Shown here: piece after piece, positions 9,080 to 28,638 of the stretch
How the letters are laid out: every line of letters begins with the position of its first letter
Position numbering within the stretch: position 1 is the stretch's first letter
Source: Syntrophaceae bacterium
Lineage (GTDB): Bacteria; Desulfobacterota; Syntrophia; Syntrophales; Smithellaceae
Direction of reading: 5' to 3'
DNA length: 64,000 nt
Assembly (NCBI GenBank): GCA_016927935.1
Contig: JAFGLS010000065.1
Location: 24,268 to 88,267 of the forward strand
Translations under genes and position numbers: made by a program
Notes under the pieces: model-generated
The model's database searches: none
What the model saw: the letters and a program-made list of their open reading frames with translations, nothing else
Told to the model about the DNA's origin: nothing

Positions 9080-12000
9080 TTAATGCTGGATAGGTCCTAG
9101 AAACCCCACACCGCCGCTTTTTAAAAGAACTCTAAGATAAAAGTCGTCGTAGGAAATAGATGCTGTGTTGTCATCGGCAGTGAACAGGGCGATAGTATCG
9201 GCAGCATAACTGCCAATCACAAAATCGGTGGCCTGACAGGTAAACTTAGTGGTATCGCTGGTCATGCATGAAGGACTGGGACTGACCAGACTGCTATCTG
9301 AGATAATGGCACTTGGTTCGCTGGTAGAAGTCAAAATAGCGGCCGGCGAGCTTGTGTTGGTAAGACCGTTAGTACCAGTCCACTGCACCAGTGTATAATA
9401 GTCATTGCTTGAATTAAGATCAGCAAGGTCATCCGGTGGCCAGTTGTGACTTCCCACGGGATTGGCCAGACGGTTGTTATCTGTCTCCACCGAATTGGCT
9501 GTGCCCAATGCTGTCGGCCTGCTGAAATAAGCCCTGATGTAATTTTTCTTTGTTTGGTTAAATCCGGTAGCCGTGGCCACCTGCACGGCTCCCTTGTACA
9601 GGGCACCACTGCTAAATGTTGCACCTGAAGTTCCATTGTTGACATTCGCCACGACTAAAGTGCCTGCGGCACCAGCGCCCCAGGAAGTGCCGCTGTTCAG
9701 AATCGGTGTCATGACGACTCGGGCAGTTCTCGTGCCTGTCGCATTGCTGATTATGTCACCTTCCTTGATTTCCATTCCCGCTATCCCATTATCGAATGTA
9801 ATGGCGTATCCTTCCGCAACACGCACCAGAACCGTGGAAAAATCCGGGTTCAGCCGCCAGGCTTTAGTCCCGGAATCGTATGTAACTATGCCGTCGCTCG
9901 TGGTCAACGTTCGGTAAGCGAGCCAGTTAAAATTCCCGCTAGTGTCTAATTTCCACAAAACAATTGCGGGAAGCCCGTAGTCATATTGCGGCTTTGACCA
10001 ATAGCACCTGGAATTGGCATTAGTCTGTTCTAAAGATCCACTATAGAGAGAGCCGCCTGCCCATCCGGGTATCAGATTACCAATTTGGTCAGTAGTTAAA
10101 CACGTGGCACAACCTAACAAAGCCTGGTCGTAATATCTACGTGGCTTTACAAAAGATATGCCGTATGTTCCATAATAAGAACCGACATTTCTGCCCTTGA
10201 ACATCATACCGGCAAAGAAGTATTTTAAACCGTTTGCTTCAACCTTTGTCTGAAGGTCATAGGAAGAAAAACCCTGCGCGTCCACCCAGGCTTGGGCAAG
10301 ATTGGCAGGCGTATTGGCCCAATCAAAAGCAAAAATATTCATTAAAGGATCCGGAGCTTCACATGATGCAAAAAATAATCCAATAATCCCAGCCAAAATA
10401 TCCAAAATAAATTTTGTTACCGCACCGATAAAACCAAAGAAAATACCGCTGGTGGTCTTACCCGGAGCACCGACGTTTATGGTACCGGTAAATGTGGGAA
10501 CGCCTCCCACAACATCATCAGGATCAACAACCCAATTGGCGGAAGAAGATCCGTCACTGCCGCCTTCCTGAGGTTCAAACATAACGGCAACCCTGCCGAT
10601 GGGCGTTTCGTAAGTCACCGTGCGGGAAATCCCGCAGGCGGCAGTGCCTGTGGAAGTAAGACGGAGAAACTTGGCCAAGACCACGTTGGTTGAAGCGGGC
10701 ACCGAGATGGAACTGCTCCATTTTGAATTGGCATCGGTATTGTAAAGATTAATGTTGTATAGCGTATTACCTATGCGCGACTTGTAGTTGAAAACGTCAC
10801 CGCCAGCGACACCACTGGTAATCTTCACTCCCGAGGGGCTGACTAACGTAAAGTTGCCGTTGAAAGGCGGCAATGCACCGGCTCCGGTTGAGTTCAGTGT
10901 CAGATTACCCCCTTTGGACAAGGTGCCACCTGAGGTAAGCGCCACAGGCCGCACATCAACATCCGGCGTAGACAGGGAGATGGATGTTGTGGGAGGGGAA
11001 ACAGCTATATTGTTGAAAGTAATCGTAGCACCGGAAACAGCGTGGGAATTGTAGGAATAAAAAGCCGGGGCACTATCCGTGCCCACCATGATGTATCCTC
11101 CGGAGGTGTCCGCGGTCATCTCCGCGGGAGCTGTTCCTACATAGCGTGTGGTAAGATTGGATGCAGTGTAGGATGTTGTTAAGAAAAACAAGGGGGCGAC
11201 CTTTGTATTAAATGAATTCCCGTTGCTTAAAATACCTGTTTTACCCCCCTCCGGACTCGTTAAACCGCTTGTTCCACCGTTCAAATCCAGTATCGCGTCT
11301 TCCTTTGCCGTATCCGAATTTGCCCAGAGATACCTGCTCGCCGCGTAACGGAATCCGGATTCCGCCATAAAATAAGCCTTGCGTCCGCAATCCGCGTAGC
11401 TTGAACTTACATAGGAAGAGGAAAACATAGACACCATCGCCGCCGCCAAAACGGCCATGATTACCATCGTGACAATTAAACCTATCAGGATACTGCCCCG
11501 TGAGCGAAAAACGGCAAGACGTTCCGGGAATCTTCTCCGAAAGACAGAAAACAAGGCGCTTGTTAAAATCACTGAAACTAATAATACGAAAATAATCGCC
11601 ATGGGTGCATACATCAAACCGAAGGCCAGTGCCGCGACAGGCGCCAGCAGGCAACGGACAGCCCCCATTGCCAACGGCCGGTTGCGAATCAAGTCCGCAG
11701 CAACAGGTCCGTATTTATAATATTGCTTAACGAACCATTTTCCCCCCTGAAAAGAAAGAAGATATCTATCACGAAAATCTCTTAAAATTTGTACCATCGG
11801 ATGACTGGAATTACCGTAAGCAGCTGTCGCCACAAAGCAGCCCAGCCTGTATCGCGCATAGTCAATATCTTCAAACTTTGGAATATCCTTGCCTCCCAAA
11901 TTATTGTTGTTGCGGGGAGAAATCCGGTTCTGAAATTCCATAATATCACCGCTGGAATTGACCATCTCTATCTTAACATCAACGGCACACAGTTTGAAGT

Positions 12001-12493
12001 CCGGATCGGTGCCCGGTGTGAAGCTGTCTTTGGGCACATCGCTTGGCGTTTCAGGAGTAACCATATAGTATTTAAAAGTTAAAGATTGAACATTATCAAG
12101 AAGTGTATCACCATTGGTCACGCTGCTTATGTTTGCACTGCCGAAGGCGATTTTTATTTTATTGCCGTCCAACCCGATGGTCCGAATACAATCGGAACCG
12201 TTGCAGTTGTTGGAACCGGTGATGGGAAGGAAAGTGCTAGTCGCGACGTTGGGAATGTTGATCATTTCTATTACTTCCTGTGTAATCCGGGACATGGCCA
12301 ATTGTACTTTTTGAGTCATTTCCGCGTTTTGTTTGGTTTTCACATATCCTTTGACCGCCTGAACAATACCCAGTCCGGCAACTGCCGCCAGAATGCCCGC
12401 CACAACAAGAGAAACAATGACTTCAACAAGAGTAAAACCTCTTTGTGATTTTCTAAGAAAAGTTCCTTTTGTAAACATAATTTTATCCCCCAA
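9080..12493 (-). CDS. Fused prepilin-like protein: N-terminal type IV prepilin (PulJ/PilW-like) + CFI-box segment + PilX-like protein; likely start ATG at 12478
   Basis: N-term SQRGFTLVEVIVSLVVAGILAAVAG; mid-protein CFVATAAYGNSSHPMVQILRDFRDRYLL...; then a second hydrophobic start GSILIGLIVTMVIMAVLAAAMVSMFSSSYV...AYFMAESGFRYA typical of PilX-like proteins. Confidence 0.8.
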   Translation of the reverse strand: MGDKIMFTKGTFLRKSQRGFTLVEVIVSLVVAGILAAVAGLGIVQAVKGYVKTKQNAEMTQKVQLAMSRITQEVIEMINIPNVATSTFLPITGSNNCNGSDCIRTIGLDGNKIKIAFGSANISSVTNGDTLLDNVQSLTFKYYMVTPETPSDVPKDSFTPGTDPDFKLCAVDVKIEMVNSSGDIMEFQNRISPRNNNNLGGKDIPKFEDIDYARYRLGCFVATAAYGNSSHPMVQILRDFRDRYLLSFQGGKWFVKQYYKYGPVAADLIRNRPLAMGAVRCLLAPVAALAFGLMYAPMAIIFVLLVSVILTSALFSVFRRRFPERLAVFRSRGSILIGLIVTMVIMAVLAAAMVSMFSSSYVSSSYADCGRKAYFMAESGFRYAASRYLWANSDTAKEDAILDLNGGTSGLTSPEGGKTGILSNGNSFNTKVAPLFFLTTSYTASNLTTRYVGTAPAEMTADTSGGYIMVGTDSAPAFYSYNSHAVSGATITFNNIAVSPPTTSISLSTPDVDVRPVALTSGGTLSKGGNLTLNSTGAGALPPFNGNFTLVSPSGVKITSGVAGGDVFNYKSRIGNTLYNINLYNTDANSKWSSSISVPASTNVVLAKFLRLTSTGTAACGISRTVTYETPIGRVAVMFEPQEGGSDGSSSANWVVDPDDVVGGVPTFTGTINVGAPGKTTSGIFFGFIGAVTKFILDILAGIIGLFFASCEAPDPLMNIFAFDWANTPANLAQAWVDAQGFSSYDLQTKVEANGLKYFFAGMMFKGRNVGSYYGTYGISFVKPRRYYDQALLGCATCLTTDQIGNLIPGWAGGSLYSGSLEQTNANSRCYWSKPQYDYGLPAIVLWKLDTSGNFNWLAYRTLTTSDGIVTYDSGTKAWRLNPDFSTVLVRVAEGYAITFDNGIAGMEIKEGDIISNATGTRTARVVMTPILNSGTSWGAGAAGTLVVANVNNGTSGATFSSGALYKGAVQVATATGFNQTKKNYIRAYFSRPTALGTANSVETDNNRLANPVGSHNWPPDDLADLNSSNDYYTLVQWTGTNGLTNTSSPAAILTSTSEPSAIISDSSLVSPSPSCMTSDTTKFTCQATDFVIGSYAADTIALFTADDNTASISYDDFYLRVLLKSGGVGFLGPIQH

Positions 12494-16453: not shown

Positions 16454-16474
16454 ATGAGTAGTATAACTACTCAT
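16454..16474. promoter_or_regulatory. Perfect 9-3-9 palindrome, candidate operator
   Basis: ATGAGTAGT-ATA-ACTACTCAT directly before the RBS (aaaggag) and the ATG at 16487; TTGACA at 16431-16436 upstream. Confidence 0.6.
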
Positions 16475-16486
16475 AAAGGAGTAAAA

Positions 16487-17038
16487 ATGAAGGAGCTTTT
16501 TACAGGACTAATATCTTCAAAAACCAGAATCAATCTGCTGGTGCGCTTTTTTTTCAACCCGGGAACGAAAGCGTATCTTCGCGAACTTTCAAAGGATTTT
16601 AATTTATCTTCCAATGCCGTCCGTGAAGAATTAAATCAGCTTACAAAAACCAAACTACTGACATCCCGGAAGGAAGGACGAAACGTATATTACAAATCAA
16701 ACAACAGTCATCCTCTTTTCCCGGAGCTGAAATCAATGGTCAGAAAGGTTATGGGTCTGGATCAGGTTATTGAAAGCATCCTCACCAGACTGGGAGAATT
16801 GGAATATGCCTATATTATTGATGATTATGCCGAAGGCAAGGATACCGGAATCATAGATTTAGTGCTTGTAGGGAGAATAAATCAGTATCATCTGAACGAT
16901 TTGAGCAGAAAAACTGAACGATATATCAAACGTAAAATTCGTTCTCTTGTTTTGACCAGAGAAGAATTCAAGGCCTTTATGCCTAAAATGAAAAACAGGC
17001 CAAACTTTCTGGTGTGGGAACGACAGAGGAATAAGTAA
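16487..17038 (+). CDS. Winged-HTH transcriptional regulator with C-terminal degenerate MNT-like domain (start trimmed from ORF-track 16454)
   Basis: TKAYLRELSKDFNLSSNAVREELNQLTKTKLLTSRKEGRNVYYKSN is a wHTH; C-term AYIIDDYAEGKDTGIIDLVLVG resembles GSYARGE..SDIDLLVIG lacking the catalytic GS. Confidence 0.75.
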   Translation: MKELFTGLISSKTRINLLVRFFFNPGTKAYLRELSKDFNLSSNAVREELNQLTKTKLLTSRKEGRNVYYKSNNSHPLFPELKSMVRKVMGLDQVIESILTRLGELEYAYIIDDYAEGKDTGIIDLVLVGRINQYHLNDLSRKTERYIKRKIRSLVLTREEFKAFMPKMKNRPNFLVWERQRNK

Positions 17039-18439: not shown

Positions 18440-19336
18440 TTGGACTTATTATTTAAAAAAAATACTTTAGCCGCTGAGAAAGTCCATTCAAAAGACCGTG
18501 TTTCGGTTTACACACCTGAATCAGCTCTGCGCAATCCGATGAAACTCATTCGTGAAATGTTTCGTGATTTGTATTCTTCACGTGAGCTGGCCTGGCGACT
18601 TTTTGTTCGTGACGTAAGTGCCCGTTATCGGCAGAGTCTGCTTGGCTACGTGTGGGCTTTCCTACCACCCATCGTGGCTACCTGCACATTCGTTTTGTTG
18701 AATCGGAGCGGGATTCTCAATGTGGGTAACCTGCCGCTTCCCTACCCTGCCTACGTAATGATAGGAACGCTTTTGTGGCAAGTTTTTGCCGACGCAATAA
18801 ACAGCCCCATTAAAACGGTGACGGCCGCCAAGTCTATGCTGGTAAAGATCAATTTCCCGCGTGAAGCAATCCTGATTTCCGGTATGTTGGATGTTTTTTT
18901 AAATTTTGCAATACGTTTGATTTTACTTATAGCAATCTTTATCTATTATGGAATTGTACCGCCAATAACCGCACCACTTGCAGTAACAGGAGTTTTTGCC
19001 ATTTTTTGTTTAGGTATAATGATCGGAATTATTCTTACACCTATAGGCATACTTTATACTGATATAGGTCAAGTATTGAGTATGGTGCTTTCTTTCTGGA
19101 TGCTGTTTACTCCGGTTGTTTATGCACCACCCACAACCGGTATTCTAGCGCGACTGACATCATTAAACCCGGTTAGTCCACTTATCGTTACCACACGCGA
19201 ATGGTTGGCAATAGGTGCAGCAAGCAATTTATTTCCCGCTTCGGTCGTTTTCCTAATCACTATGGTTCTTTTATTTGCCGGCTGGCTCCTTTATCGACTG
19301 GCAATGCCCATTCTTATAGAACGAATGGGCGGATGA
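18440..19336 (+). CDS. ABC-2 type polysaccharide exporter permease (Wzm-like)
   Basis: ELAWRLFVRDVSARYRQSLLGYVWAFLPPIVATCTFVLLNRSGILNVG...; conserved Wzm/TagG-type N-terminus. Confidence 0.9.
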   Translation: MDLLFKKNTLAAEKVHSKDRVSVYTPESALRNPMKLIREMFRDLYSSRELAWRLFVRDVSARYRQSLLGYVWAFLPPIVATCTFVLLNRSGILNVGNLPLPYPAYVMIGTLLWQVFADAINSPIKTVTAAKSMLVKINFPREAILISGMLDVFLNFAIRLILLIAIFIYYGIVPPITAPLAVTGVFAIFCLGIMIGIILTPIGILYTDIGQVLSMVLSFWMLFTPVVYAPPTTGILARLTSLNPVSPLIVTTREWLAIGAASNLFPASVVFLITMVLLFAGWLLYRLAMPILIERMGG

Positions 19337-19382: not shown

Positions 19383-20837
19383 ATGAAAGTTGCTTTCTTC
19401 TTTTTTCCTCCGTGGGACCCTCATTTCCCTTCCTATACGACGGCCCTTTTCAGAGGATCGACACTAAAAGCCGGGCATGAATTTTTCGGATTTGATCTGA
19501 ATATTGATATATACAACTCTGTACAGAAGGAAGATAAAAAAATTTGGAATGCCCAATCAGCAAATTTATGGCAGGTGGACAGCGATAAAATCATTCAAAA
19601 ATATTCAAGATATATAGATTCATGTATAGAAAAAATAACCGGATTGAGAATTGATCTCTATGCGATGTCTATAAATGTATATTCCAAGAACATAGCCTTC
19701 TATACGGCCCGGAAAATAAAAGAGAATAATCGCGCCGCCAGGATATTTATCGGAGGACCTCAGTGTTTTCCAGCATATGATGGTCTCAAAATCCTTAAAA
19801 ACAAGTATGTGGATGCCATTTGTACCGGAGAAGGTGATCTAATATGGATAAAAGCTCTTGATCATTTTTACAAATATGGAAATCTTCAGCTTGATGTTCC
19901 GGGATTGTCCTATAAAAAAGATAACGGTGATATCGTCAATAACGGAGTTCCTGAAATAGTACGGAATTTGAATTCAATCCCGTTCGCCGACTACAGTGAT
20001 ATTGATTTCAGAAAATACGGCAATGTATATAATTTCAGTCTGATGACAAGCCGTGGTTGTATCAACAAATGCGCATTTTGCAGCGAGAGACCGAATTTTT
20101 CTGTGTTCAGATTTCGTTCGGCAGAAAATATCTATAACGAAATTGTCAAACACCTGCAAGATATGCATCACAATCCTTCCGTTTCCCGATGGCGGATTTT
20201 GTATAATAGGATAATGCCATACAGACGGATGTTTCAGTACAACCGGATGAATCTTCCTTATATCAGTTTCAATGATTCCCTGTTAAACGGAGTTCCGAAA
20301 GAACTCGAAAGGTTCTGCGATCTGGTTATTCGGGGAGGTCATAAGTTCAGTTGGGGAGGTATGGCACTTATAAGAAAAGAATTGACTTTTAATATGCTCA
20401 ACAAGATGCAAAAAGCCGGCTGTTATAATCTGGCATGGGGGCTGGAATCCGGATGTCAAGAAGTTCTGGATCTAATGAATAAAAAGTTCTTTGATATAAA
20501 TCTGGCCAAACAGGTAATAAAAATGACGCATAATGCCGGAATACATCAGTCCATCTCCCTGATAGCAGGCTTCCCTGGAGAAACTGAAGAGATGTTTCTC
20601 AAAACAAAAGAGTTTGTAAAAGAGTTTAAAGATTATATTGTAGTTGGTATTCAACCAATGATGCTTGTCAAGAATTCTTTGGTCTCCGACAAACCTGAAG
20701 ATTTTGGAATTAAACCGGGAAGTGACTGGTTAAAATGGCAAACTCTTGACGGAACAAATACTTACGACATCAGACTCCAAAGAGTCGAAGCACTAAGATC
20801 TGTACTTGACGGGAAATTGATTACTATAGATAAATGA
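19383..20837 (+). CDS. B12-binding-domain radical SAM protein
   Basis: SRGCINKCAFCSERP (CxxxCxxC), RIFIGGPQCFPAYDG, GEGDLIW, WGLESGCQEVLDLMNK. Confidence 0.9.
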   Translation: MKVAFFFFPPWDPHFPSYTTALFRGSTLKAGHEFFGFDLNIDIYNSVQKEDKKIWNAQSANLWQVDSDKIIQKYSRYIDSCIEKITGLRIDLYAMSINVYSKNIAFYTARKIKENNRAARIFIGGPQCFPAYDGLKILKNKYVDAICTGEGDLIWIKALDHFYKYGNLQLDVPGLSYKKDNGDIVNNGVPEIVRNLNSIPFADYSDIDFRKYGNVYNFSLMTSRGCINKCAFCSERPNFSVFRFRSAENIYNEIVKHLQDMHHNPSVSRWRILYNRIMPYRRMFQYNRMNLPYISFNDSLLNGVPKELERFCDLVIRGGHKFSWGGMALIRKELTFNMLNKMQKAGCYNLAWGLESGCQEVLDLMNKKFFDINLAKQVIKMTHNAGIHQSISLIAGFPGETEEMFLKTKEFVKEFKDYIVVGIQPMMLVKNSLVSDKPEDFGIKPGSDWLKWQTLDGTNTYDIRLQRVEALRSVLDGKLITIDK

Positions 20838-20849
20838 TTACGCAGAAAC

Positions 20850-22124
20850 ATGCATTTGCCAACCGGAAATAATAATTCTTGTGAAACAAAACCGAATAAA
20901 ATGACCACCAATGATATTTTAATAAAAGCTGACGGCGTATCAAAGAAATTTTGTCGCAGCCTCAAAAAATCACTCTGGTATGGTTTTAAGGACATCTCCA
21001 GCGAAGCCCTGGGGTATAGAGGCGGTCACGATAGACTTCGTTCCGAAGAATTCTGGGCGGTAAAAGATATCTCTTTTGATTTAAAGCGTGGAGAATGTCT
21101 CGGAATTATTGGCCGCAACGGAGCGGGCAAAACTACCCTTCTTAAAATGCTCAACGGTCTGATCAAGCCGGACAAGGGCTGTATAACAATACGCGGCCGT
21201 GTTGGTGCTCTCATTGCCCTCGGTGCGGGATTTAATCCTATCTTGACCGGACGCGAAAACATCTACGTTAATGGTTCAGTGCTGGGACTTAGCAAACGGG
21301 AAATTGATGAGAAAATTGAAGAGATAATTGATTTCAGTGAAGTCAGAGAATTCATTGATTCACCGGTGCAAAGCTATAGTTCTGGAATGCAGGTACGGCT
21401 TGGTTTTGCGATTGCGGCTTCGCTACAACCGGACGTCCTATTGATTGATGAGGTTCTTGCCGTAGGCGACGTTGGTTTTCAAACAAAATGTTTCAACTTA
21501 TTGAATCGGCAATCGAATAAAACGACAGTTGTTTTTGTTTCACATATGATGAACCAGGTAGCACGCATCGCTAATAAAATTATCGTTATGGAAAAAGGAA
21601 TGGCTGCCTTCCAATCGAATGATGTTGCCGGTGGAATTGAGCATTACAACGATTCATTCAAAAATGAAGGGGTAACGGTTACCGGAACAGGAAAAGCTGT
21701 GATTGAGCAAATTCGCTTATATGGAGAGGATTCTTCTGACAATGAATCTATGCCTATTTTCCAGTATGGAAGTGATATAACAATTGAACTTGATTATCGA
21801 TTGCATAAGAATGTACAGGCATGTGTGATTGCAATCGGTATTTTCGATCAATCGATGCGCATGATTGCCCAATCATTTTCAAGAGCATCGGGAATCTCCT
21901 TTGAAAATAACCATGGAATTATAAAGACAAAAATAATTATTCCGCGAATCCCTCTTGCACCAGGTCTGTATAGTATCACCATAGGATTTACAGAAAAGAG
22001 GCAATCAGGTCAATGGGGAGAACACCTCGCTAGATATGAGGCTATAAAGTCTGTTAAAATTATTGGTAATGCGGCCCTATCGGCAAGTTACGCACCTATT
22101 GTACTAGAGGCCAAATGGTCCTAA
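20850..22124 (+). CDS. ABC transporter ATP-binding protein with C-terminal Wzt-type domain
   Basis: IIGRNGAGKTTLLKMLNGLIKPDKG, YSSGMQVRLGFAIAASLQPDVLLIDEVLAVGD; about 150 aa Wzt_C-like extension. Confidence 0.9.
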   Translation: MHLPTGNNNSCETKPNKMTTNDILIKADGVSKKFCRSLKKSLWYGFKDISSEALGYRGGHDRLRSEEFWAVKDISFDLKRGECLGIIGRNGAGKTTLLKMLNGLIKPDKGCITIRGRVGALIALGAGFNPILTGRENIYVNGSVLGLSKREIDEKIEEIIDFSEVREFIDSPVQSYSSGMQVRLGFAIAASLQPDVLLIDEVLAVGDVGFQTKCFNLLNRQSNKTTVVFVSHMMNQVARIANKIIVMEKGMAAFQSNDVAGGIEHYNDSFKNEGVTVTGTGKAVIEQIRLYGEDSSDNESMPIFQYGSDITIELDYRLHKNVQACVIAIGIFDQSMRMIAQSFSRASGISFENNHGIIKTKIIIPRIPLAPGLYSITIGFTEKRQSGQWGEHLARYEAIKSVKIIGNAALSASYAPIVLEAKWS

Positions 22125-22178: not shown

Positions 22179-23066
22179 ATGAGATTGATGCGGCATTTCT
22201 CAAAAAAATGGTCAAATCTTTTAATTAATCATATTGTTCAATCGTTGCCGGATCACGTTCTTTCCTTACAACTGCCTGAAAAATGCAGATATTCGGAAAT
22301 GGACATTAATAAGAATGATTTGAAGAGATGGTGTGACCAATATGTCCCTGACTGGGAAACGTCGTTCGGTGATATCAGACATAAAAAGATTATAGAGTTC
22401 TTCTGCAGTTATAATTTGCTAAGACTATGCCCGAAAGATATTTTAATGGATGTTGCCGGCGGCACGTATGGATATTTGAAAACAGCCGAAGTTGCCCGTC
22501 GAATTCTTCAAGATCGAGCCATAGCAAATTTTATCATTGAAGCATTGGGAACTGAAGTGGATTATATAGAAAGTGACGCAGGCAATATACCTTTGCCGGA
22601 AAACAGTATAGATAAAATATCTTGTCACCACTCCTTTGAGCATTTCCAGAATGATACTGACATACGTTTTATACGTGAAGTTAAGAGAATACTAAAACCG
22701 GGCGGCATGTGTTGTATTGTTCCACTGTTCTTAACAAAACGATTTTATGAAATTACAGATGAATTAACTCTACACAGAAAATATAGTGACGCATCTACCC
22801 GTATAATAGATCCCACCGCGACACTTCCCGGAGGTATATTTTCCGGTAATTACGCACGGACATACAGCATGGCAGCGTTCAACAATCATATTCTTGATCA
22901 GCTTGACGCCATCGAATGGAATGTTAATATTGTTAAGGTTCTTTTGAATGGCCGACCAGCACCGTATCCTGACATCCCGTGTAATAAAAATGTTGCAAGT
23001 GTTAACTTTCCTTACAGATGTCTCCTGATAAAAAAGAAAAATCTTAATGATAAAAATTGCCGGTGA
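22179..23066 (+). CDS. Class I SAM-dependent methyltransferase
   Basis: DILMDVAGGTYGYLKTAEV...AGNIPLPENSIDKISCHHSFEHFQNDTDIRFIREVKRILKPGGMCCIV. Confidence 0.8.
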   Translation: MRLMRHFSKKWSNLLINHIVQSLPDHVLSLQLPEKCRYSEMDINKNDLKRWCDQYVPDWETSFGDIRHKKIIEFFCSYNLLRLCPKDILMDVAGGTYGYLKTAEVARRILQDRAIANFIIEALGTEVDYIESDAGNIPLPENSIDKISCHHSFEHFQNDTDIRFIREVKRILKPGGMCCIVPLFLTKRFYEITDELTLHRKYSDASTRIIDPTATLPGGIFSGNYARTYSMAAFNNHILDQLDAIEWNVNIVKVLLNGRPAPYPDIPCNKNVASVNFPYRCLLIKKKNLNDKNCR

Positions 23067-23103: not shown

Positions 23104-26100
23104 ATGTCGCAAAAACATTCACATCTGAATAATGAAATGGGTAAAGAAAACTGGAAACTATTCAGGGCAGCAATATTTCAATATCATTTGCATGAATGCC
23201 TCACATATTTTCTTCATGTCAGCCAGGCAGGCAGTCACAGGTCTTTTTTGAGTACTGGAAAGAGTTTGCCTAGTGAAAAATTGACGGTTTTAAACGGTAT
23301 TTGCAGCCGTTTAATAGGAGAATCCATTCTACCTAAAAAAATATTGGCCACACACCTTAATCAATATAAGTATGCTGAAATTCTCTCCCGTGCATTTAGC
23401 TTGTGGAAAAAGGATCCCCCTGTCTCATTTTCTCCACCTCAGATACTTCCAAAAGGAAAATCTTATGAGGAATGGTTTCGGACAGGTGGCAGCCAAAAAA
23501 AGTATTGGCCGGTGCATGAACTCAGAAAATGGCTCCTAAAACATGGCGCACATTACTTCCGGCATGGCCTAATACACGGCAGTGTAGGCACCCTTGATGA
23601 TAGGAATGGTTTTAGTGACTTGGATCTGGCATTTATCATTCGAGGAAACGTGATTCTAGATAAAGATGCACTTGTTGGATTGAGACAGAAGGCTCGTCAA
23701 ATCTTAATTTATACATATGCATTTGATCCCCTAATGCACCATGGCCCCTACTACCTGACAGAATTTGATTTATCAATATACCCGCAAGGATTACTTCCAC
23801 TTGTTATATATGAAAACGGCGTAAACATCTTCGGAAATGATGAATTCATATATGTCAGACCTTATAATTCGGAATTTTTTACCGATTCATTAGTGGAATA
23901 TTTTAACGAGCACATCAAAGAATGGGCAAATAATAAGCAATATATTTCTGATGCATGGGATGTTGAAGTTGTTTTGGGAACAATAATGTTATTACCTTCT
24001 CTTTATCTGCAAAGCATTTCCAATAAATTCAGATATAAAAGTTTCTCGTTCAGTGAAGCAAAACTGGACTTCACGCCGGACCAATGGATGCCCATCGAAA
24101 TTGCAACAAACATAAGATCCAGTTTACCGGAACGTTATCGGCCGCCACATTTACTTGTTTCCATTGCCAGATTGACTGGAAAAGCAGGTTTTTTACCAAA
24201 ACGTGCCCTTCTTCACGGCAAGTCTAAACAATCGGCTAAATTAGCGCAATACATGATAGGAAGTGATTTTGCCGAACAATCATTAAGATTAATTAATTCA
24301 GTGCGAAAAAAAATTGCCGATGCGGATGTTGTCAATAGATCAGCCCCAGAGGAATTTTTATCTGCTCTGGGAGATATACAAAGAGGACCTTTTACCGATG
24401 AACCATTTAAGGCAACAATGGCTGATTATATGAAGGCGAAAGACTATTTAATTGACCGGTGGACTAAATCCGATAAACGTCCTGTCGCCATTTATCAACT
24501 GGGATCAATAGGCGCGGCTGGCCACTCGGATATTGATTTTATTGTGGTCTGGCCGGAAGCACAGCCCATAAAATATAAAGACTACCGGCAGGCTGAATAT
24601 CCGGCATCGATTCAATCGTATATGGTTCATCCTCCCTATTTCTGCACACCGAAACTCTGGGAGAAGATGGCCGGCTGGTACCCTGCTTTTAGTCTTCAAC
24701 ACCTGTGGGGGGAAAAACTGGATTTACCTAAAGTGCCGGATGGAGCTTCTAAGGGAATTGCTCTCGGGCATCTTGCGGCCTCGCTTCACACAAAACTTCC
24801 TGAAGATTTATTTTTGTTTGCCATGCAGAAACCCATTCGGCTTCGCATCATCATCAACACTTTACACAGTTTCAAATATACCTGCCAATTAGCCGCGATG
24901 GCAGGAATGACACTGCCGCCGGATATTTCTGAATTGGCGAAAAAAATTGAAAACCTAAGAGAAAATTGGATCGATAACATCCCCAAACCTTTTGATAAAC
25001 TTCAACAGTTATCCATTGAAGTTTGTTGTGCTCTCCAAATCATTCATGACCTGTGTATAGAGGCTGTTGATAAATCATGCTCTTCCCGAGAAAACCCTGA
25101 TCAATATCCGATTTACTCACCGAACTTGAGCACTTATGCCCAGCATGCTGTATCTTGTTATTTTACTACAGGATCAACTCCCCGGCTATTAACAGCGGGC
25201 TTGGCCCGATTTCTTTCTCTTTGTGCTGTTTTTGAACCTAAAATGCTTCAGACTTTCAGACATCTTGGCAGGCTTCCAGGGATTTCCATTAATGAATCCA
25301 TCTACACAGAAGGACTAAGGCGATTTGCCGCCGATTCGGTGGAATATGCTGATGAAATGATTCCTTTAGGGGTTCCAGCAACGAAATACTACAGTTTGGG
25401 ATACAGCCCTAAAGGGAATCCGATAAACGACGGAGTTAAATTGCCATTCTTTCATCGTTCAGTTTCATTGATAAAACGAGCGGTCTCAATGACTCGGGAT
25501 AAACGCTCAAGGCAGTGGTTAGTTCATAAGCTAAAGGCACGTATAAATTATTTTATAAAATATTGTTCTCTTTATCCACGCCTTCGCTTATTCAGGATAT
25601 TAAAATCGGACAAACCAATTATAATTATATCGCAATTGATGCACATGGGAGATATTGTGGCGTGTGAGCCTGTCGCTCGACAATTACATGAAAAAAACCC
25701 CGGCGCCTATATAATCTGGTGTATAGATATCCGTTATCAGGAAATTGTAAAGAAAAACCCTCATATTAAATATGTGTTCAGTGTGCTGTGTATGTGGGAA
25801 TGGTCCCGGCTGCGCGATTCAGGCTTGTTTGATGCTATAATCGATTTGAATGTTCATGAAAGATATTGTTCCCGCTGCAATTTCATTCTATTAAAAGATG
25901 AAACCGCACAGGCCATTAAATATGGAACTCAATATCGCCATCCTTCACTCCTGGAAGCCTTTTCAAAGGGAGCGGGAATCGCAATAAGACCCGAAAGACC
26001 ACTCTTATATTACTCAAAAAAAATTATCCGTAGGATTGATTCTCTTTCTTTGCCGTCCTTTTTCATAGTCATAAATTGTAAATCTAATGAAGAATCCAGA

Positions 26101-26520
26101 AATATCCCCCGCAACAAGTGGATACAAGTATTAAATTACCTGTGTAATACCCATTATGTCAACGTCGTTGAAGTGGGATCTTCGGCATTTGCTTCAATAA
26201 AATCATCTCACTACTTTGATCTCTGTAATCAATTGAGCATCCTGGAAACGGCAGAAGTGATTCGCAGAGCAGCTTTGTTTGTCGGCATTGATAGCGGTCC
26301 GGCGCATCTTGCTAATGCAGTACAAACCCCGGGAATTCTATTGATGGGACACTATCTTGAATTTGTCAAGTATATGCCGTACACCGGTTTCTACACAGAT
26401 CCGAAGAATGTGGATTTTTTATGGGCTGATGGTCCCGCGGCTCTTTTGGAAGTTTCATCAATCATAAACATTATTTTAAAACGACTGGAAAAAGAGGTCT
26501 GTAACCCCTCAATAACATGA
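23104..26520 (+). CDS. Multidomain protein: two nucleotidyltransferase-like motifs + C-terminal GT9 (heptosyltransferase-like)
   Basis: HGSVGTLDDRNGFSDLDLAFII and YQLGSIGAAGHSDIDFIVVW are NTase-like GSx(n)DxD motifs; C-term IIIISQLMHMGDIVACEPVARQL...FVGIDSGPAHLANAVQTPGILLMG is GT9. Confidence 0.8.
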   Translation: MSQKHSHLNNEMGKENWKLFRAAIFQYHLHECLTYFLHVSQAGSHRSFLSTGKSLPSEKLTVLNGICSRLIGESILPKKILATHLNQYKYAEILSRAFSLWKKDPPVSFSPPQILPKGKSYEEWFRTGGSQKKYWPVHELRKWLLKHGAHYFRHGLIHGSVGTLDDRNGFSDLDLAFIIRGNVILDKDALVGLRQKARQILIYTYAFDPLMHHGPYYLTEFDLSIYPQGLLPLVIYENGVNIFGNDEFIYVRPYNSEFFTDSLVEYFNEHIKEWANNKQYISDAWDVEVVLGTIMLLPSLYLQSISNKFRYKSFSFSEAKLDFTPDQWMPIEIATNIRSSLPERYRPPHLLVSIARLTGKAGFLPKRALLHGKSKQSAKLAQYMIGSDFAEQSLRLINSVRKKIADADVVNRSAPEEFLSALGDIQRGPFTDEPFKATMADYMKAKDYLIDRWTKSDKRPVAIYQLGSIGAAGHSDIDFIVVWPEAQPIKYKDYRQAEYPASIQSYMVHPPYFCTPKLWEKMAGWYPAFSLQHLWGEKLDLPKVPDGASKGIALGHLAASLHTKLPEDLFLFAMQKPIRLRIIINTLHSFKYTCQLAAMAGMTLPPDISELAKKIENLRENWIDNIPKPFDKLQQLSIEVCCALQIIHDLCIEAVDKSCSSRENPDQYPIYSPNLSTYAQHAVSCYFTTGSTPRLLTAGLARFLSLCAVFEPKMLQTFRHLGRLPGISINESIYTEGLRRFAADSVEYADEMIPLGVPATKYYSLGYSPKGNPINDGVKLPFFHRSVSLIKRAVSMTRDKRSRQWLVHKLKARINYFIKYCSLYPRLRLFRILKSDKPIIIISQLMHMGDIVACEPVARQLHEKNPGAYIIWCIDIRYQEIVKKNPHIKYVFSVLCMWEWSRLRDSGLFDAIIDLNVHERYCSRCNFILLKDETAQAIKYGTQYRHPSLLEAFSKGAGIAIRPERPLLYYSKKIIRRIDSLSLPSFFIVINCKSNEESRNIPRNKWIQVLNYLCNTHYVNVVEVGSSAFASIKSSHYFDLCNQLSILETAEVIRRAALFVGIDSGPAHLANAVQTPGILLMGHYLEFVKYMPYTGFYTDPKNVDFLWADGPAALLEVSSIINIILKRLEKEVCNPSIT

Positions 26521-26538: not shown

Positions 26539-28638
26539 ATGTCCAATAACAGGCAAAAAATAATCAACAGAAAATTATCGTATTGGCAAATTATCGTCGG
26601 GTACATTAAACAGCATTTAATCAAATATCCCCTTCTATACGAATTGACGATAAAACTGTATCGTTATGTTCGAAACCTGATACCAGATTTTGCCAGTATA
26701 ACTTACAAGGACGGCTCTTCATGGAAATACATTTCTTATGATCTCGGTTTGCTGCAGGTAAACCGAGAGCAATCCGAAAAAATCTCTCATCCGTTACGGT
26801 CTTTCACGGCTCATTATGAAAAAGACGAAGATTTCAGCAAATACATAACCGATATCAAAGCAATCGCTTATTATCTGCCCCAGTTCCATGCCATTCCGGA
26901 AAATGATGAGTGGTGGGGAAAAGGATTTACAGATTGGACTAATACCAAAAAAACCGAACCACTGTTTCCAGGACATTATCAACCGAGAGAGCCGCATGAG
27001 GATATCGGCTATTACGATCTGAGCGATGTTGAAATCATTAAAAAACAGGTTGCGATGGCAAAAAAACATGGCATTTTCGGATTTTGCTTTCATCACTACT
27101 GGTTTCATGGGAAGAGGTTGCTCGGAAAACCGGTTGATTTATTTTTAAAACATCCGGAGATTAACATGCCTTTCTGCCTGTGCTGGGCAAATGAAACGTG
27201 GAGCAAAAGATGGGATGGAAGTGACCATCTCATCCTGATGAAACAGATTTTTTCACCAGAGGATGATCTGCAGTTCATTCAATTCCTGGAACCGTATCTG
27301 CGAGATTCCAGATATATCAGGGTCAATGGCAAACCTATGTTGATCGTTTATCGTATCAGTAAATTACCGAATCCGCTGGAAACAGCAAAGCGCTGGAGAA
27401 ACTGGGCGAAGGAAAACGGCATTGGAGAATTACATTTAGTTGCTGTCACTCATGGGGAGGTATTTCCACATACTTCTCTCTCTGAAATAGGTTTCGATGC
27501 TTATGCCGCTTTTCCGCCACATACTTTCAAATGTAAAAAAATACACGGTCACAGAAAGATTTTTACCGGCGGATATCGTTTTGATTATGAGTCGGGAGTA
27601 AATTCTTATACTTATCCGAACACAGATACTTCCATATACGAGGGATGCACCTTAGGATGGGATAACACGCCAAGATTTTTACGAAACGCAACCATTTATC
27701 TGAATTTCTCTTTAAATAGCTATTATAAATGGCTACGAAAAATTATAGAAAATACCAGTGCAAAATATCAGAACCCGGAAAACCGATTTATTTTTATCAA
27801 TGCCTGGAATGAATGGGCTGAAGGCGCATATCTTGAACCTGATAAAAAATACGGCTACGCATATATTAATACCACATCAAGAGCGTTGTTTAATATCCCG
27901 ACAAAGTACCTGGAAAAACAGGAAGAAAGTCATGAATCCGCCATCCGTTACACAAAAGAATATGAATCAACGAAATACCTTATAGATAAAAAGAGAGAAA
28001 AAGCTTGGGCTTTTATAAATCAGCTTATAAGGTCGGATTCTCATATTTTAGAATTCGGGCCTTCATCCGGATTTTTTACCCGCTACCTGAAAGAGGAACG
28101 AAATGCCGTTGTTGATATCGTGGAAATAGATGAATCCTGTGCCGAACAGGCATCTGAATTTGCGCGCGATTGCCATATCGGAGATATTGAACAATATCTC
28201 TGGAAAGATGCTTTTGCCGGCAGACAATACGACTTTGTTCTTTTTGCAGATGTGCTTGAACATTTGCGCGATCCCTGGAGTGTTTTAAAGGAAGCAGGAC
28301 AATTCCTCAAAGCGGACGGCAGAATTATCATATCGCTGCCTAACATTGCTCACGTACAAATTATTGCCAGTTTATATAACAACGATTTCTCCTATTCCAG
28401 CGCAGGAATTCTTGACAAAAGCCACCTTCGATTTTTTACTGAACCGACAATTCGCCAGATGGTTGAAGAAGCCGGGTTACAAGTATGTAACCTGATTCCG
28501 GTTCAATCCCCTCTTCTACCGGAAGGCTGCGGCACATACTGGAATAAATCCGGCATTCCTTTCAAACTCAAGAGAATGCTATCAAAAAAAGAACACGCTT
28601 ACGCAATGCAATTTGTTGTTTGCTGCAAGAGGAAATAA
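26539..28638 (+). CDS. WbsX-like glycosyltransferase/GH99-like domain fused to C-terminal SAM methyltransferase
   Basis: AIAYYLPQFHAIPENDEWWGKGFTDWTNTKKTEPLFPGHYQPREPHEDIGYYDL is WbsX-like; C-term HILEFGPSSGFFTRYL...DFVLFADVLEHLRDPWSVLKEA is a methyltransferase. Confidence 0.85.
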   Translation: MSNNRQKIINRKLSYWQIIVGYIKQHLIKYPLLYELTIKLYRYVRNLIPDFASITYKDGSSWKYISYDLGLLQVNREQSEKISHPLRSFTAHYEKDEDFSKYITDIKAIAYYLPQFHAIPENDEWWGKGFTDWTNTKKTEPLFPGHYQPREPHEDIGYYDLSDVEIIKKQVAMAKKHGIFGFCFHHYWFHGKRLLGKPVDLFLKHPEINMPFCLCWANETWSKRWDGSDHLILMKQIFSPEDDLQFIQFLEPYLRDSRYIRVNGKPMLIVYRISKLPNPLETAKRWRNWAKENGIGELHLVAVTHGEVFPHTSLSEIGFDAYAAFPPHTFKCKKIHGHRKIFTGGYRFDYESGVNSYTYPNTDTSIYEGCTLGWDNTPRFLRNATIYLNFSLNSYYKWLRKIIENTSAKYQNPENRFIFINAWNEWAEGAYLEPDKKYGYAYINTTSRALFNIPTKYLEKQEESHESAIRYTKEYESTKYLIDKKREKAWAFINQLIRSDSHILEFGPSSGFFTRYLKEERNAVVDIVEIDESCAEQASEFARDCHIGDIEQYLWKDAFAGRQYDFVLFADVLEHLRDPWSVLKEAGQFLKADGRIIISLPNIAHVQIIASLYNNDFSYSSAGILDKSHLRFFTEPTIRQMVEEAGLQVCNLIPVQSPLLPEGCGTYWNKSGIPFKLKRMLSKKEHAYAMQFVVCCKRK

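Follow-up and report, generated by a model that had tools for sequence, protein, structure and literature searches.

Nucleotidyltransferase (NTase)-fold enzymes that act on glycans are already known. The AAD(9) and AadA adenylyltransferases put AMP on sugar hydroxyls. Chain terminators of the WbdD type, which are kinase-methyltransferases of ABC-exported O antigens and not NTases in fold, typically contain a coiled coil that serves as a molecular ruler. The LicD/FKRP enzymes have an NTase fold and modify glycans by moving a phospho-alcohol from a CDP donor; among these surface-glycan enzymes, the bacterial LicD-family protein CpsC and human FKRP use CDP-polyols (PMC11666461, PMC6965139). In the O-antigen systems with ABC-dependent export that have been characterised, a chain is exported only after termination, and its terminus is recognised by the carbohydrate-binding module of Wzt (PMC11231755).

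This analysis describes a gene in a 64,000-nucleotide stretch of DNA from a Syntrophaceae bacterium (assembly GCA_016927935.1, contig JAFGLS010000065.1; the whole stretch is referred to as the window), of which the product joins two NTase-type regions, NTase1 and NTase2, to a heptosyltransferase-like GT9 domain. The NTase1-NTase2 pair and its GT9 fusion match no described family found, in agreement with a preliminary description of this DNA, which did not recognise the architecture; its open reading frame of 1138 aa and its two GSx(n)DxD motifs (residues ~159-174 and ~468-479) were recovered exactly, and no described architecture was found that covers a chain of an NTase-type pair and GT9. In the part of the literature that was covered, no paper combined a nucleotidyltransferase domain, a heptosyltransferase, a fusion protein and polysaccharide. 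NTase1 and NTase2 are two families that lack a dedicated Pfam or PHROG model and that are linked, across bacteria and marine phages, in glycan synthesis. The existence of fused and split versions makes the function of the pair testable with one purified protein and a defined acceptor, and the outcome could be nucleotide or new phospho-alcohol substituents on bacterial polysaccharides, a decoration that sequence annotation now misses. The features of the gene and its cluster are given below by window position; G1068 is a genome that carries a second fusion, and numbers starting with P denote separate-gene homologues.

16454..17038, + strand: HTH protein, assigned from sequence, with HTH-type matches below cut-off
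18440..19336, + strand: Wzm, ABC transporter permease (NF050109 galactan permease, 1.1e-9, below cut-off; no Pfam match)
19383..20837, + strand: radical SAM protein (PF04055, 2.5e-12) with weak B12-binding similarity; a variable member of the cluster
20850..22124, + strand: Wzt, the ATPase of the ABC transporter (PF00005, 1.6e-23), carrying a Wzt_C carbohydrate-binding domain (PF14524, 1.3e-14); its C-terminal domain spans 21666-22121
22179..23066, + strand: class I methyltransferase (PF08241), also adjacent to the fusion in G1068
23104..26520, + strand: fusion gene, 1138 aa, NTase1-NTase2-GT9, a single open frame
23104..24363, + strand: NTase1 region, aa 1-420 (family profile match; homologues P0002, P0004 and P0006, with PF01909/PF18765 matches in homologues)
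23578..23625, + strand: NTase1 catalytic motif G159-S160 ... D172-x-D174, invariant in 13 of 13 sequences
23767..23769, + strand: proposed third carboxylate of NTase1, D222
24364..25590, + strand: NTase2 region, ~aa 421-829, collinear with the separate downstream genes P0003, P0007 and P0008; SDxD kept, third carboxylate missing
25600..26517, + strand: GT9 (heptosyltransferase-like) domain (PF01075; partial TIGR02193 match below cut-off; GIDSGPAHLA motif)
26539..28638, + strand: glycosyltransferase of the WbsX type (PF14307, 4.2e-124) with a fused methyltransferase (PF13489, 6.6e-17); a variable member of the cluster

Residues 1-830 of the fusion protein, when searched alone, had no match among Pfam, NCBIfam, PHROG or PDB sequence families, and single-sequence searches against the PDB, PHROGs, plasmids and genome contigs were likewise negative. 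The assignment of the N-terminal part as a putative NTase rests on homologues, for which sequence profiles of the NTase1 and NTase2 families were built in this analysis. A profile of NTase1 homologues from which both fusions were omitted matched the fusion protein at aa 132-347 (E ~1e-28, in a nominal search space of one million). The NTase1 region appears to consist of an N-terminal helical part, an NTase core (~aa 132-260) and a C-terminal helical part. PF01909 was matched by three of 12 NTase1 members (E <= 1; best 1.4e-5), with the separate NTase1 gene of genome G383 passing the cut-off (21.2 versus 21 bits), and PF18765 (Polbeta) by two of the 12 (best 4.6e-5); a Pfam search gave no PF01909 match to the fusion protein itself. 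Profile searches of the PDB with the NTase families returned only sub-threshold matches, to CdnD and DrrA, both of which are NTase-fold proteins. G159, S160, S171, D172, D174, D208, H213 and P232 are invariant over 13 NTase1 sequences, and the residue at position 222 is D or E in every one of them. Since key residues are invariant across 13 sequences of each family, the NTase1 and NTase2 motifs are beyond chance, and NTase1 looks catalytically complete by its residues. Its GSx(11)DxD motif and third acidic residue are shared with the minimal nucleotidyltransferases and aminoglycoside adenylyltransferases of PF01909 and PF18765, from which it differs by a long N-terminal helical part, an invariant DxxxxH motif, a constant pairing with NTase2 and a location in glycan clusters, as well as by the lack of a match in the window protein.

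Two modes of transfer can be considered for NTase1. In the first, nucleotidyl transfer, it would adenylylate or cytidylylate a glycan hydroxyl, yielding an NMP-decorated or NMP-capped polysaccharide, with which the complete GS-DxD-D/E set and the PF01909 affinity of its members are consistent. The structural comparison points in the same direction, as the seven best PDB matches found by Foldseek for the NTase1 model are aminoglycoside adenylyltransferases (AAD(9), ANT-4 and ANT-3,9), at E-values of 0.014-0.15 and TM-scores <= 0.27 from a poor model, so that they are suggestive rather than proof. AlphaFold had been supplied with four sequences per domain, before larger alignments were made, and because of this small input both models are poor, with mean pLDDT values of 44.5 for NTase1 and 45.7 for NTase2. 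The low-confidence NTase1 model displays a helix-strand-strand-helix-strand order, which was the source of the strand assignment of the third carboxylate. Structure prediction, put forward in the preliminary description as a check on both NTase domains, thus gave weak NTase matches for NTase1 and no NTase fold match among PDB folds for NTase2, for which the poor model makes fold matches meaningless. In the part of the literature that was covered, no nucleotidylated glycan turned up, bacterial polysaccharides included; nucleotidyl transfer is possible rather than likely. In the second mode, which resembles that of LicD and FKRP, a CDP donor would give up a phospho-alcohol (phosphocholine, or the phosphate of glycerol or ribitol), which NTase1 would pass to the glycan; CMP would be released and the product would keep no nucleotide. 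NTase-fold glycan modification, as proposed here for NTase1, is what it would share with LicD, fukutin and FKRP (PF04991), including the LicD-type capsule polymerase CpsC, and the known use of CDP-polyols by such enzymes speaks for this mode. However, PF04991 matched none of 12 NTase1 members, none of 12 NTase2 members and not the fusion protein, the sequence matches that were obtained are to PF01909/PF18765, and the weak fold matches are to adenylyltransferases.

NTase1 profiles also match the N-termini of class I adenylate cyclases (at ~1e-4), and PF12633 was found at 0.1 in one NTase1 member, which would suit a relative of these cyclases that makes a signalling nucleotide. This reading was rejected as very improbable, as no cyclase family, PF12633 included, was detected in the fusion protein by Pfam, the context is one of glycan synthesis, and the similarity is limited to the common NTase motif. 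Profile matches in genomes G880 and G744 resemble class I adenylate cyclases and were discarded.

The NTase2 region, with a putative degenerate NTase core at ~aa 440-535 followed by a helical C-terminal part, was detected more weakly than NTase1, its profile matching residues 438-494 of the fusion at E = 0.1 in the same nominal search space of one million. Its assignment is supported by collinearity, NTase2 being always directly downstream of NTase1. Across 13 sequences the G, SD and D of the motif are invariant and a conserved Y is kept (F in one), but the serine of the GS motif occurs only in the two fusions, with N, Q, D or E elsewhere, and a third carboxylate is present in one of the 13, being otherwise N, P or absent. 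The alignment of NTase1 with NTase2 is weak and lies around the motif (hhalign E 7e-4, probability 26%). NTase2 is probably a pseudo-enzyme, a degenerate sister domain. The preliminary description had proposed two pol-beta-like NTases; two NTase-type domains are upheld, but the catalytic set is complete in NTase1 only, and the fusion protein is accordingly read as one putatively active and one degenerate NTase. Two activities appear unlikely because 12 of 13 NTase2 sequences lack the third carboxylate and the serine of the GS motif is usually absent.

The preliminary description assigned the last ~300 aa to a heptosyltransferase-type GT9, and this holds: PF01075 matches residues 987-1082 well above its cut-off (2.6e-11; 43.7 versus 22 bits), and the GIDSGPAHLA donor-site motif is intact. 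The C-terminal 300 aa and this motif represent the likeness to the GT9 heptosyltransferases (PF01075, TIGR02193/TIGR02201), from which the window GT9 differs by its fusion to NTases and by scores below the equivalog cut-offs. The NCBIfam equivalogs for LPS heptosyltransferases I and III score 52.7 versus 185.3 and 43 versus 170.2 bits, far below the cut-offs, for which reason the domain was not filed as an LPS heptosyltransferase I. GT9 is an optional partner of the NTase pair, since the pair is not fused to GT9 in 14 of 16 contigs.

The low frequency of fusion (two of 16 contigs) and the source, a draft genome of 239 contigs with ~5% contamination, could raise the suspicion of an assembly or binning artefact. 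This is hardly credible and was rejected, as G1068, an independent genome of another family and class in the same phylum, encodes a fusion of 1149 aa that is 68% identical to and collinear with the window protein from end to end, with all motifs kept and the same neighbours. Nei-Gojobori dN/dS between the two fusions comes to about 0.17 for the whole gene and to 0.07-0.26 for the separate segments, the linker included, with dS near saturation in parts; the fusion gene is under purifying selection. The preliminary description had considered that the fusion might be confined to its own assembly; the survey of homologues found it to recur once. The second copy sits in the same gene order, HTH-Wzm-Wzt-MT-fusion (MT, methyltransferase), which marks the fusion as a genuine gene under selection. 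Between the two genomes the HTH protein is 85%, Wzm 86%, Wzt 78% and the methyltransferase 75% identical, and the C-terminal domain of Wzt is 74% identical. The HTH protein belongs to the co-travelling unit on account of its conservation in the G1068 cassette, and its C-terminal half is possibly a degenerate NTase remnant that lacks the GS and DxD residues. The flanking genes differ between the window and G1068, and the G1068 cassette has no counterparts to the window's radical SAM and acyltransferase genes. The G1068 fusion is followed by a diverged WbsX of 435 aa that is 45% identical to the window WbsX and has no methyltransferase part. A search of 84 other genomes of the class revealed no close relatives of the window methyltransferase or of the C-terminal domain of Wzt. 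The data suggest that the cassette moved as a unit, with a binning error in either draft genome being possible.

NTase1 and NTase2 occur together in all 16 contigs, with NTase2 directly after NTase1 in every contig examined, usually overlapping or a few bases apart. In addition to the two fusions there are 14 adjacent-gene cases, found in two bacterial glycan clusters (G383 and G885) and 12 marine viral contigs. Their occurrence as adjacent genes in some clusters and as a fusion in others argues for a joint function. The first homologue search covered 395 genomes of the phylum, with G383 as the only other match; beyond the phylum, the coverage of bacteria comes solely from two exact-pattern scans of genome contigs. 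When viral contigs were searched with a strict DNA pattern for the FDPxxHHx8DxxxY motif, eight loci matched, of which one was genuine. In G383, where the locus lies on a contig identical to one of Thermosulfurimonas dismutans, an environmental thermophile, a gene of 413 aa corresponds to the first part of the fusion protein and the next gene, of 355 aa, to the second, and the context includes a flippase, Glf, Wzy and glycosyltransferases. G885 has separate genes in the order flippase, NTase1, NTase2, B12-type radical SAM, GT9, GT4 and methyltransferase genes, so that a GT9 gene lies two genes after the pair; its radical SAM protein is 22% identical to that of the window. Neither of these two pairs adjoins an ABC transporter; both have a flippase beside them.

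On the marine-type viral contigs (L009, L033-L046), glycan synthesis is encoded in long islands that include CTP_transf_3 and NeuB-like genes and numerous glycosyltransferases. Several islands with the pair have an APH/choline-kinase-like gene beside a MobA-like transferase, which speaks for the LicD/FKRP-like mode; against it stands that these genes were not seen in every viral island, nor in the window cluster. That mode of transfer, too, is possible rather than likely, and the two modes are held equally probable. A conserved protein of ~390 aa (VLVVHCVDTEGPIGGDVRR...) is encoded directly after NTase2 in most viral islands (e.g., L009:11648-12853 and L040:10821-11996), and the one member searched had no Pfam or PHROG match. 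Directly before NTase1 in the viral islands lies a gene for a conserved protein of ~345-375 aa (MKVAFLIDKPQT...; e.g., L009:8727-9767 and L043:7917-9026), the identification of which as a GT-B enzyme is unsupported, with no Pfam or PDB match. One viral contig has a gene that by eye resembles a T4-type late sigma factor, for which PHROGs gave no confirmation, and a PHROG exonuclease was confirmed beside another viral island.

Variable glycan islands might also harbour by chance a toxin/antitoxin or defence NTase pair of the MenT/AbiE/MntA-HepT or CD-NTase type, and sub-threshold similarity of the CD-NTase type was seen (CdnD in the PDB, E 0.28; a PADLOC cyclase at 4e-4 in one member). Three settings place the pair inside co-directional glycan operons, two independent genomes have it fused to GT9, and the fusion itself has no PADLOC match, two homologues matching weakly; the defence reading was rejected on these grounds as quite improbable.

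The preferred reading, held at about even odds, is that the fusion protein is a multi-domain glycan-assembly enzyme with an active NTase1, an accessory NTase2 and a GT9. NTase1 would represent an undescribed family of metal-dependent transferases with an NTase fold and probably moves a phosphorus-linked group to a sugar hydroxyl of the growing glycan; the group would be NMP if the donor is an NTP, or phospho-X if it is a CDP-X. NTase2 would probably bind the substrate, position the partner or regulate it, and GT9 would add a sugar residue to this acceptor or to one next to it. In the window cluster, the outcome would probably be an ABC-exported polysaccharide with a modified or capped end; substrate, donor, the accessory role of NTase2 and the capping are what we infer. 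Capping of the exported chain is plausible here because the fusion travels with a methyltransferase and with a Wzt that has a carbohydrate-binding domain. These companions recall the WbdD-type systems, as do the multi-domain build of the protein and the proposed addition of a phosphorus-linked group; the fusion differs in its predicted NTase fold in place of a kinase, in the methyltransferase being a separate gene and in carrying GT9. Termination cannot be the general role of the pair, since split pairs adjoin flippases or sit in phages. A bolder version, in which NTase1-NTase2 attaches AMP or CMP to surface polysaccharide, the nucleotidylated end made by the fused form acts as the export signal for the carbohydrate-binding domain of Wzt, and marine phages use the pair to decorate glycan during infection, is considered improbable.

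The glycan-cluster context given in the preliminary description is supported. Against the preferred reading stands that the window cluster has no obvious donor-synthesis gene. Elsewhere in the window, an open reading frame of 1137 aa (9080-12493, - strand) appears to join two prepilin-like proteins, and a 28-residue stretch in the middle of this protein resembles a C-terminal sorting-type motif.
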